From Chitinispirillum alkaliphilum (GTDB lineage Bacteria; Fibrobacterota; Chitinivibrionia; Chitinivibrionales; Chitinispirillaceae): a stretch of DNA of 64,000 bases. Location: contig LDWW01000006.1 of the NCBI GenBank assembly GCA_001045525.1, positions 1-64,000 on the forward strand, given 5' to 3'. Position numbers and translations under genes: made by a program. The notes beneath the pieces are model-generated. The model ran no database searches. It was given only the letters and a program-made list of their open reading frames with translations, and was not told the origin of the DNA. Positions 33,116-42,297 of the stretch are shown here, in pieces. How positions within the stretch are numbered: the first letter of the stretch is position 1; every line of letters starts with the position of its first letter.

Positions 33116-33523
33116 TTCTATCTTTAAGCCTTAAAATTGTGAGCTACAGATGAGTAAAATAGTAAATTGGGGAAATAATTCAGCCCTATATTGAAAACAA
33201 AAATCATAATTGCAAAAAGTCAGCTCTTCTGATTCAAACACAACGTGTGACGAAGTATAGTAGTATTAGGCCCATAATCCGGGATATTTAAAGCCTCTAA
33301 AAAATTGTTTTTCTTTGATAACCATAAAATCCCCAATAATTGAGTTGGTTTCATCTTTCCCCAAGCTCTCTCAGACCATAACACCAACTCCTGTTCCGCA
33401 TGAATCCGCCCATCAGTCTTGTATTTGGTAACTGCAACACATTTTTTTTTGAACAGGAGAGCTGCAAGAGCTTATTTTTATACTCTTGTTCTATTTCAAA
33501 CATTAAAGTAAGGGAAATTGCAG
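33116..33523. other. Intergenic region between divergent epmB and efp
   Basis: No gene is seen; a short minus-strand ORF here has no support. It must carry the promoters of both transcription units. A hairpin GAACAGGAG (33451-33459) with CTCTTGTTC (33483-33491), one G-U pair, lies 33 nt before the efp start and could affect efp mRNA translation or stability. Confidence 0.5.
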
Positions 33524-34087
33524 ATGGGAACTGTAAGTACAAATGAGTTCAGAAAAAAACTTAAGGTGATAATGGATGGACAGCCATGGATTATTGTTGA
33601 AAATGATTTTATCAAACCAGGTAAGGGTCAGGCATTCAACAGAGTGAAACTTAAAAATCTTATCACCGGACGAGTTCTCGACCGTACTTTCAAATCTGGG
33701 GAAACAATAGAAACTGCTGACGTTACCAACGCGACAATGCAGTACTTATATGATGATGGAACAAACTACACATTCATGAACACAGAAAACTACGAACAGG
33801 TAGAGATATCAAAAGAGCAGCTGGCTGACGATGTGAAATATCTCAAGGAGGGTGTTGAATGTGAGGTTTCTTTCTGGAACGGACAGGTAATATCTGTAAC
33901 CCCTCCCACATTTATGGAGTTTGAAATTACATATACAGAACCAGCAGTAAAAGGTGACACCGCCACCAATGTCACCAAAAAAGCTACAATCGACACCGGT
34001 TATGAAATTGATGTTCCGCTTTTTGTCACAGTTGGCAACAAAGTTAAAATCGACACCAGAACCGGTGAATATCTTGGCCGTGTATAA
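33524..34087 (+). CDS. efp: Elongation factor P
   Basis: EF-P relieves ribosome stalling at polyproline sequences. The protein is 187 residues from the ATG at 33524, with AAGGGA upstream. An overlapping TTG at 33518 is not needed. Domain I carries the modifiable Lys34 in the loop KPGKGQAFNRVKLKNL, matching the EpmA/EpmB-type (Lys34) EF-P. The three-domain length is normal. epmA follows 33 nt downstream. Confidence 0.96.
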   Translation: MGTVSTNEFRKKLKVIMDGQPWIIVENDFIKPGKGQAFNRVKLKNLITGRVLDRTFKSGETIETADVTNATMQYLYDDGTNYTFMNTENYEQVEISKEQLADDVKYLKEGVECEVSFWNGQVISVTPPTFMEFEITYTEPAVKGDTATNVTKKATIDTGYEIDVPLFVTVGNKVKIDTRTGEYLGRV

Positions 34088-34120
34088 CCGGTCTGATATC
34101 CTCATAACACCCGCTATATA

Positions 34121-35086
34121 ATGGCAGATCAAAGCTTTACAGTTAAATCGGCCCTTTTAAGGGCCGATATGCTAAGACGGATCAGAGAATATTTCCACAA
34201 CAAACATGTCCTTGAAGTGGAAACCCCGATCCTTTCCAGAGGCATATCCACAGACTGCCACCTGGATATATTCTCCACCTTCTTTCATCCTGATGGTTTC
34301 ACAGAATCTCAACAAAGCACTCCCCTTTTCATGCAGACATCCCCGGAATTTTTCATGAAAAGGCTTCTGAGCAGCGGATTTCCCGATATCTATCAGATGT
34401 GCAAAGTATTTAGAAACGGTGAAAACGGAAATATTCACAATCCTGAATTTACTATGCTGGAATGGTACCGTCTAGATTTTTCAATGGAAGATTTCATCCG
34501 GGAAGCGGTTGAAATTTGCACCCTAATACTTGGGGAAAGGGAATGTGTGTCTCTGAGCTACAGAGAAATATTTAAGAAACACACTGGAATAGATCCCCTG
34601 AACACCAGCTTTGAAGACCTTCTATCTTTTTGTGAGAAACAAGGCAAATACCCGTCCCACTGCACATGCCTTTCAGATATGTTTAACTACATAATGAGTG
34701 AACACGTAGAGCCCCGGATGAATTCCGAGTCACTTTACGTAATCCATAATTTCCCTTCGGAACAGGCGGTTTTTGCAAAACTCAATCCCACCGATCCCAG
34801 AACAGCATTGCGCTTTGAATTGTACTATAAGGGAGTAGAGCTTTGTAATGGCTGGGAAGAACTTGCCGGAGAGAGTGGTGAGGTTAGGGCCCGCATGGAA
34901 AAAGAGAATGAACTGAGAAAGCAAAACGGCAAACCACTTCTCCCCGTTGATGAGAGATTTGTGGATTCTGCAGCATCTTTCCCCCCCTGCTCTGGTGCAG
35001 CTCTTGGGTTGGATCGCCTGGTAATGCTTGCAGCCGGTTCAAACAGCATTGATTCTGTAATGTCATTCACTTTGAAAGACTGCTGA
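34121..35086 (+). CDS. epmA: EF-P lysine--lysine ligase EpmA (PoxA/GenX)
   Basis: EpmA is a truncated class II lysyl-tRNA synthetase paralogue that attaches beta-lysine to Lys34 of EF-P. The 321-residue protein lacks the anticodon-binding domain and starts directly with the catalytic core (RADMLRRIREYF). Class II motifs are visible: motif 2 MCKVFRNGE..NPEFTMLEWYR and motif 3 GAALGLDRLVM. It follows efp on the same strand, giving an efp-epmA unit with divergent epmB. Confidence 0.94.
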   Translation: MADQSFTVKSALLRADMLRRIREYFHNKHVLEVETPILSRGISTDCHLDIFSTFFHPDGFTESQQSTPLFMQTSPEFFMKRLLSSGFPDIYQMCKVFRNGENGNIHNPEFTMLEWYRLDFSMEDFIREAVEICTLILGERECVSLSYREIFKKHTGIDPLNTSFEDLLSFCEKQGKYPSHCTCLSDMFNYIMSEHVEPRMNSESLYVIHNFPSEQAVFAKLNPTDPRTALRFELYYKGVELCNGWEELAGESGEVRARMEKENELRKQNGKPLLPVDERFVDSAASFPPCSGAALGLDRLVMLAAGSNSIDSVMSFTLKDC

Positions 35087-36572: not shown

Positions 36573-37865
36573 CTATCTGCTTCTAATCCGCCAGTCCAGA
36601 ATACGCTCATTTGGCAAAGATTTCTCACGCAGAGCCCGGATTGTGTTTACATTAGATATGAGTATAGGGTAAAACTCCCCGGTTTCACCTCTTAGCTTTG
36701 TGGCAACTGTTTCTACCATTGATGTCGGAGCTGCCACATGCACAGAAACCCTGTCGGATTTGGAGTTGTCATCTTCAAGAACGATCACATAATCATTTAT
36801 CCCCTCAACCTCATCCAGGGTATTTATAAGTGTTAGAGGGTATATAAATTTGCCCGATTTCCTGATGAGCTGTTCTTTTCTCCCAAGCACCGGCCCGATT
36901 CTAAAGGAATTTCTGCCACAAGCACAATTCCCTGAGATTTTGAAACTGATATCACCGCTCTTATATCTCAGTAAAGGCATCCCCTCCACACCAAGCGGTG
37001 TTAGGACAAGTTCACCTGGAGTTCCATCCGCAACCGGGTTACCATCCAGATCAACAATTTCGGGGTAAAGCAATTCTGGGATTACATGAAGCCCACTGCT
37101 TTGCGGACAGTCACAAAACGGTGCAGATATTTCAGTGGTATTATAGATTGAGAAAACGGAAGCACCCCAAATCCTCTCCATCTCCAAAGCTATGGAGTTT
37201 AATTCCATAGACTGGGTTCTTATACTCTCTCTTGTACAAACAAGTTTTTTAACAGAACTGTTCACAGTACTGTACCCTGTTTTCTCAAGCTCAACACCAA
37301 GTGATTTCAATGTTGAGGGCTCACCAATTATCACATCAGGTTGTAAATTATCAAGATAGTATTTGAGTTTTTCGCCAGAAACACCTATCCCTGCGCGAAC
37401 AGCGTTGGCTCCCAGGGCCACAAGCCCCCTGTAACATGCCATAGCAAGAAAACAGGGAGATTCAAGCCCTGTCATTATGAGAACGGTGTCATCCTTAGAT
37501 ATACCGCAGCGATGGAAGGAAAGGGCATTACCATAGGCAAGACGTTCAAGGTCATTTTTTGTGAAAGGAAATTGTTTCATCTTTCCTTTGCCCGCAGAGC
37601 TCACGACAGTCTCTACAATGCTTTCATTTGAAACCGCTCTAAAATCATTGTAATTGGAGCAGAGAGTTTTCCTATCAACAAAAGGGATTTTGGAGAAATC
37701 CTCAGGAGTCTCAATTGCCTTTGGATCTAAACCATTAAGTAAATCGCGGTAATGAGGAGATATTTCAATGAGATGCGCTATATGATTTCGTAAAGCTCTT
37801 AATGTCTTTGAAATGATCTGTTCTTCGGAAAGAAACTCCCAGGAAAAATCAGGATTGAAAAGCAA
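36573..37865 (-). CDS. PaaK-like adenylate-forming enzyme
   Basis: The 430-residue protein belongs to the phenylacetate-CoA ligase-like branch of the ANL superfamily. It carries a modified phosphate-binding loop (SSAGKGKMKQFPFT where SSGTTGKP is usual), YNTTEI, YKSGDI and the IGPVLGRKEQLIRKSGKFIYP region, and the C-terminal lid domain. Whether it makes an acyl-CoA or only an acyl-adenylate is unknown, and the altered loop makes the activity less sure. The start is TTG at 37865. It stands alone on its strand. Confidence 0.75.
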   Translation of the reverse strand: MLFNPDFSWEFLSEEQIISKTLRALRNHIAHLIEISPHYRDLLNGLDPKAIETPEDFSKIPFVDRKTLCSNYNDFRAVSNESIVETVVSSAGKGKMKQFPFTKNDLERLAYGNALSFHRCGISKDDTVLIMTGLESPCFLAMACYRGLVALGANAVRAGIGVSGEKLKYYLDNLQPDVIIGEPSTLKSLGVELEKTGYSTVNSSVKKLVCTRESIRTQSMELNSIALEMERIWGASVFSIYNTTEISAPFCDCPQSSGLHVIPELLYPEIVDLDGNPVADGTPGELVLTPLGVEGMPLLRYKSGDISFKISGNCACGRNSFRIGPVLGRKEQLIRKSGKFIYPLTLINTLDEVEGINDYVIVLEDDNSKSDRVSVHVAAPTSMVETVATKLRGETGEFYPILISNVNTIRALREKSLPNERILDWRIRSR

Positions 37866-38903: not shown

Positions 38904-40238
38904 TTACCACTCCAACGAGAGACCAGCAGCAGTAATTCCCGCTCCAACAGTACAGAAAATGACCTTATCACCCTTCTGCAGCCCTTTTTCGATTTCCGAA
39001 AGAGCTATAGGGATGCTTGCACTTGATGTATTCCCAACTCTGTCGATGTTGAGATAAAACCGTTCAAATGATATGCCGCTCTTTCTGGCTGCAGCTTTTA
39101 TGATTCTTCCGTTTGCCTGATGTGGAACCACCCACCTGACATCCTGGGGCTGCCAGTTACTTTTAACCACAAGTTCTCGCACGAGTGATGAGAAACTTTC
39201 AGTAGCAAATCTAAAGAGCGCTTTTCCGTCAAGGCGCACCCAGGGATCAAAATCAGCGGAATTGTCCGGCACTTCGTAGCCGGGATAGTGCCGCCTTGCC
39301 ATGTGAAGCCCGTCACTGTCAGCACTTAAAATTTCCTGTTTTATGATATGGCCGGATCTCGAGCCAGAAACAACAGTCGCACCTGCCCCATCTCCGAAAA
39401 GGAAATAGGTGTCTTTATCATTTTTATCAAGCACCCTGGACTGCATATCAACAGCAGTTACAAGTACATTATCGGCTACACCGGAGAGGATTAACCCCTT
39501 GGCGGTGGATATGGCATAGAGCCAGCCAGAACATGCTGCATTGAGGTCAAAGGCAGGCACGCCCCTTATACCCAGCATACCCTGAAGAATACATGCGGTT
39601 GAAGGCATAACCACATCGGGGGTTGTGGTGGAGACCACTATTGCCCCTATATCTTTAGTTGACAGGCCCGATTCTTCGATTGCTTTTAGTGATGCCTGGT
39701 AAGCCATATCTGAAGGTTTCTCTTCACTTGAGGCCCACCGTCTCTCTTTTATCCCGGTAACTCCGTATATGTAGTCTTCTGTTATATTGGGAAATTCCGA
39801 CAGAAGCTCATCTGTTTTTACCACACGGGTGGGCAGATAGGTGCCAAACCCAAGCATAGAGATCTCTCTTGGAGCAGAGTGTACCGCTGCCTTAGGGGTC
39901 AATTCCATTTTTTGTGGATTCGCAGATTCCTCCTGCTTAACCTCCTGTTTTTCTCCGCTACCCGCCTGTGAATTCTCATGCATGGAGGGATCAGAGGTTG
40001 TAATCTCCATAACCGGATTTTCAAAAGGAACAGATGCACCCTCGTTATAAAGCAGTTTCTCAACCTTCCCCTCACAGGGAGCTTCAAAATCAAAGGTGGA
40101 TTTAGCACTCTCAACTTCAGCAAGAATCTGATCTTTTTTAAAGGTATCGCCTTCGCTTACCAACCAGCGTATAATGGTAGCTTCAGTTTCTGCTGCAGCC
40201 TGTGCCGGTAAGTGTAAGACAGTATTAAAAGATGTCAT
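38904..40238 (-). CDS. Lipoyl domain fused to 3-oxoacyl-ACP synthase III
   Basis: The 444-residue protein has two parts. Residues 1-80 are a lipoyl domain like that of 2-oxo acid dehydrogenase E2, with the expected modification site Lys46 (EVESAKSTFDF). Residues 81-122 are a polar, Glu/Lys-rich linker. Residues 123-444 are a complete KAS III (FabH-like) with Cys236 (NAACSGW), His373 (VPHQANGR) and Asn403 (VGNTSSAS). The partner gene upstream encodes a fused E1 and ends 1 nt before its ATG. I infer that an acyl group formed by E1 on the lipoyl arm may pass to the KAS III active site for chain initiation. KAS III normally uses acyl-CoA. Confidence 0.85.
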   Translation of the reverse strand: MTSFNTVLHLPAQAAAETEATIIRWLVSEGDTFKKDQILAEVESAKSTFDFEAPCEGKVEKLLYNEGASVPFENPVMEITTSDPSMHENSQAGSGEKQEVKQEESANPQKMELTPKAAVHSAPREISMLGFGTYLPTRVVKTDELLSEFPNITEDYIYGVTGIKERRWASSEEKPSDMAYQASLKAIEESGLSTKDIGAIVVSTTTPDVVMPSTACILQGMLGIRGVPAFDLNAACSGWLYAISTAKGLILSGVADNVLVTAVDMQSRVLDKNDKDTYFLFGDGAGATVVSGSRSGHIIKQEILSADSDGLHMARRHYPGYEVPDNSADFDPWVRLDGKALFRFATESFSSLVRELVVKSNWQPQDVRWVVPHQANGRIIKAAARKSGISFERFYLNIDRVGNTSSASIPIALSEIEKGLQKGDKVIFCTVGAGITAAGLSLEW

Positions 40239-40239
40239 T

Positions 40240-42297
40240 TTAAGTTGCCTCTCCTAGTATCTTTTCAATCGCACACCTTATTCTTTCCTGACCTGGCAAA
40301 TAGGTGTATTCCAACTCTTTAGCAAAGGGAACTGGTGTATCCGGAGCACTCACTTTTACCGGAGCACACTTTAAAGAACTGAAACATCTCTGAACAGCAA
40401 GAGAAATAAACCGGTCACCTAACCCGGCGGTTTCTCCGCTCTCCTGAATAACAAGTAACCTTCCGGTCGCTTCAATTGATTTCAATACCGGTTCAAAGTT
40501 TAATGGGTTTAATATAAATGGATTCCATACCGAAGCGGAATAGTTATTGTTATTAACGACTTTTAGTGCCTGCTCTACCATCGCTCCCATAGCAACGATA
40601 GTCAGATCTTCACCCTGGGTATACTGTCTTGGGCGAAACACCTCAGAGATATCTCCCTTAAATTCTATATCTCCCTGATTACCCCAGTAGAGAAGCTTAT
40701 GCTCCAAAACGATACAGGGATTAGGATCGTAAAAGCCAGCAAGTATTGCTTCATATGTCTCTTGTGGAGTAACAGGATAGAGAAGTTTAATACCCGGAAA
40801 CCGTGTCCAGAGTCCATCATATTCTGCAGAATGAAATGCCCCCAGAGTTATCCCTCCCCCACAGGGCATCCGGAAAAGAATAGGAGCGCTTTTTCCCGTT
40901 CTGTAAAACCAGGTTCCTGAGTTCAGGGCGACCTGAGTAACCGCTTCGGTGGAAAAATCCGCAAACTGAAACTCCATAACCGGCCTGGTGTTAACCTGCG
41001 AAGCTCCAAGGCAGAACCCGGCAGTACCGGACTCACATATCGGAAAATCAAGGACACGATCAGGGCCATGTTTTTTTATCAACCCCTTACAGGTTTTGAA
41101 GGCAGACCCATACTCACCTATATCCTGTCCACAGATAAATGCATCTGAATTGCTGGTAAGTATATGATCAAGAGCTGTGTTAATTGCATTTAAATTCCTC
41201 ACCTGTTTTGCACTGAAAGGTGAGATCTTTGGAATTTCAGCACTACAGAATACCACCTGAGGGGGCGTGGTTGGATTGGGTCTTGAACATGCAACAGCTC
41301 TGCTTGTCAGAGTGTCGGTTTCCTCTGTGATTTGCTTTTCAAGATCACACAGCTCCTCTTCTGAAACAATTCCCTCTGCGAGAATCTTTTCCCTTACAGC
41401 AGGAACTGGATCGAGCTTGAGAATTCTCTCTTTCTCCTGGTCGCTGATATAATCACAGGTATCGTAGACCGCATGCCCTTCAAGACGTATCGTTTTGGCC
41501 TCAATCAATACCGGGTGAGGATTCTCAGCCATCTCCCTGAGAGAATCGGTCACAGCACTGTATACTTCCCATGGGTCGAGCCCGTTGATGGTTTTCCCCG
41601 GTATTCCATAGCCGGATGCCCTGTCGGAAATGTTTTTACATTTGAATTGTTTTTGAGTTGGGGTGGAAAATGCGTAATTATTGTTTTGGACAATAAACAC
41701 TACCGGCACATTTTGTACAGAAGCCAAATTCAAAGCCTCATGGAAGTCCCCTGTGCTGGCGCCGCCATCCCCTATCGCGGTGATACCGTAAATCTCTTCT
41801 CCGTTTTTACGTCCTGCCCATACACCTCCAACCGTAAGGGGGAGCATACCACCCAGATGACTTATCATGGGAAACCGCCGGTTCAGCGCATCCCCATGGT
41901 GGACATTACCCTCTCTGCCATGTGTGGGACTGTCAGCATTTGCCAGGTGCTGGCAAATAAGGGAATAGGGGTTAGCTCCGGCCACCAGATGTGATCCCAG
42001 ATCACGGTGAAGCAGAGACAAAATATCTTTTCCAGACCGGAAGGGTAGGGCCATCCCCACAGCAGTAGCTTCATTCCCTTTACTCATTACAACAGTACCC
42101 TTAACCATCCCCTTGCGAAACAGTTCCTTAATTTTATTGTCGATAAGACGGGTAAGGAACATAAAGGGGTAAGCCTTTAAATATAGCTGCTCTCGGGACA
42201 ACAGATCCGGAAATCGGGGCACGTTACTCTGCATTGTTTTAATACAGCTCTGATCGGAATTAGTTAATACTGAGATATATCCTCCCAGGTAGAACAT
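40240..42297 (-). CDS. 2-oxo acid dehydrogenase E1, fused alpha and beta subunits
   Basis: This is a thiamine diphosphate-dependent decarboxylase/lipoyl-acylating enzyme of 685 residues. The alpha part (to about 345) has the ThDP motif GDGGASTGDFHEALN..NNNYAFSTP. The beta part (from about 365) has GQDIGEYGSAFKTCKGL, a Glu in FPICESGTAGF and the C-terminal swivel domain (VIQESGETAGLGDR). Substrate class (pyruvate, branched-chain or other) is not clear. No E2 catalytic or E3 gene is adjacent; only the lipoyl-KASIII gene follows. Start may be the ATG at 42297 or, closer to the family start, the ATG at 42234. Confidence 0.85.
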   Translation of the reverse strand: MFYLGGYISVLTNSDQSCIKTMQSNVPRFPDLLSREQLYLKAYPFMFLTRLIDNKIKELFRKGMVKGTVVMSKGNEATAVGMALPFRSGKDILSLLHRDLGSHLVAGANPYSLICQHLANADSPTHGREGNVHHGDALNRRFPMISHLGGMLPLTVGGVWAGRKNGEEIYGITAIGDGGASTGDFHEALNLASVQNVPVVFIVQNNNYAFSTPTQKQFKCKNISDRASGYGIPGKTINGLDPWEVYSAVTDSLREMAENPHPVLIEAKTIRLEGHAVYDTCDYISDQEKERILKLDPVPAVREKILAEGIVSEEELCDLEKQITEETDTLTSRAVACSRPNPTTPPQVVFCSAEIPKISPFSAKQVRNLNAINTALDHILTSNSDAFICGQDIGEYGSAFKTCKGLIKKHGPDRVLDFPICESGTAGFCLGASQVNTRPVMEFQFADFSTEAVTQVALNSGTWFYRTGKSAPILFRMPCGGGITLGAFHSAEYDGLWTRFPGIKLLYPVTPQETYEAILAGFYDPNPCIVLEHKLLYWGNQGDIEFKGDISEVFRPRQYTQGEDLTIVAMGAMVEQALKVVNNNNYSASVWNPFILNPLNFEPVLKSIEATGRLLVIQESGETAGLGDRFISLAVQRCFSSLKCAPVKVSAPDTPVPFAKELEYTYLPGQERIRCAIEKILGEAT

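Follow-up and report, generated by a model that had tools for sequence, protein, structure and literature searches.

Textbook priming of branched-chain fatty acids runs from a 2-oxo acid to an acyl-CoA and then to FabH. A two-gene locus of Chitinispirillum alkaliphilum ACht6-1 raises the question of whether the acyl group may instead pass directly from a 2-oxo acid dehydrogenase E1 to a β-ketoacyl-ACP synthase III (KASIII), with a lipoyl arm taking the place of CoA. The window analyzed here is the whole 64,000-nucleotide stretch at the start of contig LDWW01000006.1. Within it, the initial annotation had recognized a two-gene unit encoding a fused E1 and a lipoyl domain joined to a KASIII with its Cys-His-Asn triad, a description that held when open reading frames, Pfam matches and alignments were examined. 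Both genes lie on the minus strand, separated by 1 nt, and their features are as follows.

40240..42297 (-), fused E1 alpha-beta, 685 aa, a ThDP-dependent 2-oxo acid decarboxylase/dehydrogenase (Pfam/NCBIfam, conservation)
38904..40238 (-), lipoyl domain-KASIII fusion, 444 aa (ORF, Pfam, NCBIfam, alignment, AlphaFold2)
39993..40238 (-), lipoyl domain, residues 1-82 (PF00364; pLDDT about 79-98)
40101-40103 (-), codon of Lys46 in the lipoyl domain (invariant in a 38-row alignment)
39867..39992 (-), flexible linker, residues 83-124 (pLDDT <50 at residues 90-120; no PF02817 match)
38907..39866 (-), KASIII domain, residues 125-444 (PF08545/PF08541; Foldseek match to FabH)
39531..39533 (-), catalytic Cys236, equivalent to E. 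coli FabH Cys112 (invariant)
39120..39122 (-), catalytic His373, equivalent to E. coli His244 (invariant)
39030..39032 (-), catalytic Asn403, equivalent to E. coli Asn274 (invariant)
39759..39785 (-), former CoA-binding site, residues 152-160, with Ile152, Tyr156 and Val160 replacing Thr28, Trp32 and Arg36 (FabH alignment; PMC4606726)

Elsewhere in the window, at 33518-35086 (+), an EF-P gene is followed by an EpmA/GenX-like lysyl-tRNA-synthetase paralogue and a flagellin-like gene, identified by reading the sequence only.

The E1 protein carries the E1_dh, Transket_pyr and Transketolase_C domains on a single 685-aa chain (Pfam). Across 35 homologues, 130 positions are invariant, including GDG176, NN205-206, Glu422 and His489, and the ThDP motif and catalytic residues expected of a 2-oxo acid dehydrogenase complex are present. 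Pyruvate dehydrogenase (PDH) E1s and branched-chain E1s matched the window E1 about equally. The E1 alpha stretch containing Ser146 and Leu148 appears closer to branched-chain E1s than to PDH.

The partner protein combines Biotin_lipoyl (residues 8-79, E 1.6e-14), ACP_syn_III and ACP_syn_III_C on one 444-aa chain, and no dedicated model for this design was found in Pfam or NCBIfam. The best NCBIfam stretches over the N-terminal region were lipoyl domains of SucB and PDH E2, identifying it as E2 type, and Lys46 sits in an ESAKS context rather than the biotin MKM motif; a biotinyl domain was thus ruled out by motif and family scores. Lys46, Cys236, His373 and Asn403 are invariant in all 26 rows of one alignment. 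The Cys-His-Asn triad is likewise invariant in 38 fusions and kept in all 57 of the wider alignment, and Lys46, invariant in the same 38 rows, is positioned as the acceptor lysine, its lipoylation itself being inferred. AlphaFold2 modeled the fusion with a mean pLDDT of 89.5; the lipoyl domain and the KASIII were each predicted with confidence, with a disordered linker between them at residues 90-120, and Foldseek aligned the KASIII part to solved FabHs with a target TM of about 0.9. Pfam searches of the window fusion matched neither the E3-binding domain (PF02817) nor the E2 acyltransferase core (PF00198).

A search for the same fusion and its neighbors, proposed as a check in the initial annotation, showed that the design recurs in four bacterial phyla, with E1 adjacent in the genomes read except those of Opitutia. 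Full-length fusions occur in 26 of 168 Fibrobacterota genomes, all of the same order, with one further copy cut at a contig end; they share 60-82% identity with the window copy, and E1 adjoins the fusion wherever the contig permits, with a 4-nt overlap in many relatives. A wider scan of 84,980 genomes added fusions of Planctomycetota and Candidatus Sumerlaeia (50-57% identity), which have E1 directly upstream. The planctomycetal form is rare (2 of 392 sampled genomes, centre included). The scan also recovered a fusion in Opitutia (Verrucomicrobiota; 40% identity); as it relied on only two short peptide patterns, the true range is probably wider. The Opitutia proteins represent a sister form in which an E3-binding domain (PF02817) lies between the lipoyl and KASIII domains (seen in L122, L192 and L197), whereas this domain was absent from the four Planctomycetota/Sumerlaeota fusions scanned. 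Of 384 genomes of the class, 20 hold the sister form at full length, and no E1 was found beside it in the 12 neighborhoods read. The proteins concerned are L122 and L171-L202, and one genome (G811) holds two copies.

Chance or assembly fusion is ruled out by the 26 full-length copies in the order and by recurrence of the E1/lipoyl-KASIII pair in other phyla. In a quick tree, a branch with SH-aLRT 99 set all fused KASIIIs apart from the other sequences, but because it is a meeting point of long branches the tree does not prove that they arose once. The pair is retained across Fibrobacterota, Planctomycetota and Sumerlaeota while other neighbors vary, and no conserved cluster was seen around it in Planctomycetota/Sumerlaeota, where neighbors were not annotated by family. 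A biosynthetic gene cluster was considered and rejected, since RadC and a FlxY/PaaK-like ligase recur only in relatives from the order and the planctomycetal neighbors differ. The window copy of this adenylate-forming ligase (36573-37865, -) has FlxY as its best NCBIfam match (305 bits against a cut-off of 520), and its nucleotide-binding motif looks degenerate (SSAGKGKMKQF versus TSGSTGKPVHF in the relative L042), with a Pfam score under the cut-off. In most of the 18 loci holding the ligase, it lies 2-4 ORFs downstream of the fusion.

The remaining components of a 2-oxo acid dehydrogenase complex were sought across the genomes. No E2 acyltransferase core (PF00198) was found in the C. alkaliphilum genome, which rules out a split complex with an E2 encoded elsewhere. 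Its other Biotin_lipoyl matches are only two biotin carriers and a membrane-fusion protein, and its other lipoyl protein is GcvH; the fusion is therefore the only E2-type lipoyl partner found for the E1. E2 is missing from 10 of the 27 fusion-bearing genomes of the order, including C. alkaliphilum, and seven of these ten are at least 90% complete; it is also missing from 3 of 12 carriers outside the order, for which completeness was not given. In several genomes, then, no other E2-type partner for E1 was found. The remaining 17 fusion-bearing genomes of the order encode an E2 elsewhere. Both LipA (contig C11) and E3 (TIGR01350, contig C5) are present in C. alkaliphilum, so E3 and lipoyl synthesis are available. 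The only full-score E3, a lipoamide dehydrogenase (C5:168701-170077), is flanked by an RsmE-like gene and by genes for transport, and this orphan enzyme probably serves both GcvH and the fusion. Two earlier claims can be judged on these results: replacement of the E2 acyltransferase domain by a condensing enzyme is supported by the lack of an E2 core in this genome and several relatives, and the statement that E3 is not nearby held, its gene lying elsewhere in the genome.

Whether the fused KASIII still binds CoA was assessed from its residues. In FabH, Thr28, Trp32 and Arg151 bind the CoA adenine, while Arg36 and two Asn residues bind the phosphopantetheine (PMC4606726). The comparison covered E. 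coli FabH, 57 fused KASIIIs and 36 stand-alone FabHs, of which 18 came from the order and 18 from Planctomycetota. Thr28, Trp32, Arg36 and Arg151 were retained in all 36 stand-alone FabHs of these groups, whereas Trp32 and Arg36 were present in none of the 57 fused proteins and Thr28 in only one. The replacements of Thr28, Trp32 and Arg36 are near-fixed but differ between the two groups, being Ile/Val/Leu, Tyr and Val, respectively, in Fibrobacterota and Planctomycetota, and mostly Arg/Lys, Glu and Leu in Opitutia, where 17 of 19 proteins carry Glu at position 32. The ACP-docking residues persist, with Arg249 and a Lys or Arg at 214 in 57/57 fusions. Inferred from sequence alone, such a pattern would be expected of an enzyme that has kept its docking of ACP and given up that of CoA. 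The missing CoA site could, however, also reflect an acyl-ACP donor, and the Tyr replacing Trp32 might still allow adenine stacking. Arg36 is also not universal among CoA-using KASIIIs, the Staphylococcus aureus FabH having Met at this position.

The acyl pocket is altered as well. The acyl-gate residue Phe87 of E. coli FabH has been linked to acetyl-CoA preference (PMC3734052); each of the order's 18 stand-alone FabHs has Phe at position 87, but nearly all fusions have Met, Val or some other residue there. Separately, all 38 Fibrobacterota/Planctomycetota/Sumerlaeota fusions carry Gln266 where E. coli has Leu142, and all 57 fusions carry Arg316 where E. coli has Leu191. Both lie near or in the pocket and are not obviously suited to an acyl group that is small, apolar and branched.

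Fatty acid profiling of the organism, another check suggested in the initial annotation, could be answered from published data: the phospholipid fatty acids (PLFA) of C. alkaliphilum are dominated by anteiso-C15:0 together with C16:0, followed by C14:0 and iC16:0. Those of Chitinivibrio alkaliphilus are C16:0 and C16:1, and no Chitinivibrio was among the fusion carriers of the 84,980-genome scan; that it lacks the fusion rests on this absence and on five fusion-free genomes of family f3 (G025-G029). Isolates of Opitutia contain abundant anteiso-C15:0, iso-C15:0 or iso-C14:0 (PMC12193912, PMC5303756). The lipid evidence thus consists of one member genome and a class-level trend, and the Opitutia isolates are not linked to fusion-carrying genomes. 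Branched starter units are favored because of these branched-rich lipids and the non-Phe acyl gate, although anaerobes can also form branched acyl-CoA by ferredoxin-dependent oxidoreductases, which remains a possible alternative source.

Taken together, we consider it likely that the pair acts as a 2-oxo acid to 3-oxoacyl-ACP synthase priming branched-chain fatty acids, although no biochemistry is available and substrate, product and transfer are all inferred. In this model, the two genes would form a shortened 2-oxo acid dehydrogenase complex with a condensing enzyme in place of the E2 acyltransferase core. E1 would decarboxylate a 2-oxo acid, the likeliest candidates being the branched ones that correspond to Ile, Val and Leu, and would reductively acylate the lipoyl group on Lys46; the linker would permit the lipoyl domain to swing to the KASIII, where Cys236 would accept the acyl group directly from S-acyl-dihydrolipoyl rather than from acyl-CoA. 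Malonyl-ACP would then dock, and decarboxylative condensation by the Cys-His-Asn triad would yield a branched 3-oxoacyl-ACP leading to anteiso and iso fatty acids. The distantly encoded, shared E3 is predicted to reoxidize the lipoyl group, while a separate FabH would prime straight chains from acetyl-CoA. Because the lipoyl-lysine arm does not match phosphopantetheine in length, being shorter, direct transfer demands that the KASIII tunnel be within its reach.

The initial annotation had proposed this passage from E1 through the lipoyl arm to the KASIII cysteine, bypassing acyl-CoA, and four independent lines now support it: the E2 core is missing from the genome and several relatives; E1 and the fusion are co-conserved and translationally coupled across phyla; the CoA-binding residues are lost in every fused KASIII and in no stand-alone FabH tested; and branched lipids are abundant in the organism and in the class carrying the sister form. 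Retention of an E2-type E3-binding domain in the Opitutia form, and the presence of E3, LipA and GcvH, also favor the direct route. Architecture, conservation, gene pairing, E2 absence and CoA-site loss are shown; lipoylation of Lys46, acylation by E1, transfer to Cys236, condensation and use of the distant E3 are inferences. The annotation had further named branched or short 2-oxo acids as starters, of which the branched are favored as an inferred substrate, and fatty acid or polyketide initiation as the outcome, of which fatty acid priming is better supported.

Three other explanations deserve consideration. The same direct transfer might operate on a different 2-oxo acid, either pyruvate or an aryl-pyruvate, and so supply the starter for straight-chain lipids or for a specialized metabolite. 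The polar Gln142 and Arg191 of the fused pocket, the ligase found 2-4 ORFs downstream in many relatives and the equal match of E1 to PDH and branched-chain enzymes speak for this reading; against it stand the abundance of branched chains in lipid profiles, the lack of a conserved cluster beside the pair in Planctomycetota/Sumerlaeota (with neighbors not family-annotated) and the sub-threshold Pfam score of the window ligase, and we regard it as unlikely. Similarly doubtful is a KASIII that merely hands the lipoyl-bound acyl group to ACP or CoA, replacing E2 without condensation. KASIII-like acyltransferases such as ChlB3 do exist (PMC9573744) and the E2 core is missing, but every fusion retains the His and Asn on which decarboxylation depends, and the CoA site is lost.

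Least plausible is a KASIII using acyl-CoA as usual, with the lipoyl domain serving only to recruit it, playing a regulatory part or feeding another E2. It could draw on possible adenine stacking by Tyr at position 32 and on the 17 fusion-bearing genomes with an E2 elsewhere. The 10 fusion-bearing genomes without E2, seven of them at least 90% complete, count against it, as does the joint replacement of Thr28, Trp32 and Arg36, position 32 being Glu in 17 of the 19 sister-group proteins; we judge it very unlikely.

A bolder extension of the direct-transfer reading, which we also consider likely, is that these proteins define a class of complex in which lipoyl rather than CoA carries the acyl group and oxidative decarboxylation of a 2-oxo acid is directly coupled to the making of a C-C bond on ACP. 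The class would comprise two architectures in at least four phyla, each architecture having lost the KASIII CoA site. If correct, this would be a channeled, CoA-free route, with the lipoyl arm as the carrier from which the C-C bond is formed. It would explain the anteiso and iso lipids of Chitinispirillum, and possibly of Opitutia, and might find use in branched lipid production independent of CoA pools.

No earlier description of the lipoyl-KASIII/E1 design was found in the open-access literature searched, a collection of 5.39 million papers, and the view that no enzyme of this kind has been characterized thus met no contrary report there. PqsD and ChlB3 are also KASIII folds adapted to another acyl substrate or reaction (PMC3734052, PMC9573744); to our knowledge, no KASIII of this type carries a lipoyl domain or has an E1 as its partner. 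With FabH, the fusion shares the fold, both Pfam halves, the Cys-His-Asn triad, ACP-docking Arg249 and a basic residue at 214, but it differs in its N-terminal lipoyl domain, its replaced CoA-binding residues and the change of Phe87 to Met, Val or other residues. With E2 dihydrolipoyl acyltransferases, it shares the N-terminal lipoyl domain and flexible linker, and in Opitutia the E3-binding domain; it lacks the 2-oxoacid_dh core, and its C-terminal KASIII should form a C-C bond rather than acyl-CoA. The unit would resemble a 2-oxo acid dehydrogenase complex that ends in the FabH step, yet it fails the defining tests of both parents, having neither an E2 core nor a CoA-binding site that is intact. 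Among known routes, the closest is that of Staphylococcus aureus, in which Bkd is combined with FabH (PMC10026030, PMC8524195) and which has in common the E1 alpha-beta family, the lipoyl arm, KASIII priming and likely branched starters. In that system the complex releases free acyl-CoA, which FabH then binds, whereas the present unit has no E2 core and carries its lipoyl domain on the KASIII itself; every part belongs to a known family, and the net reaction would be new to us.
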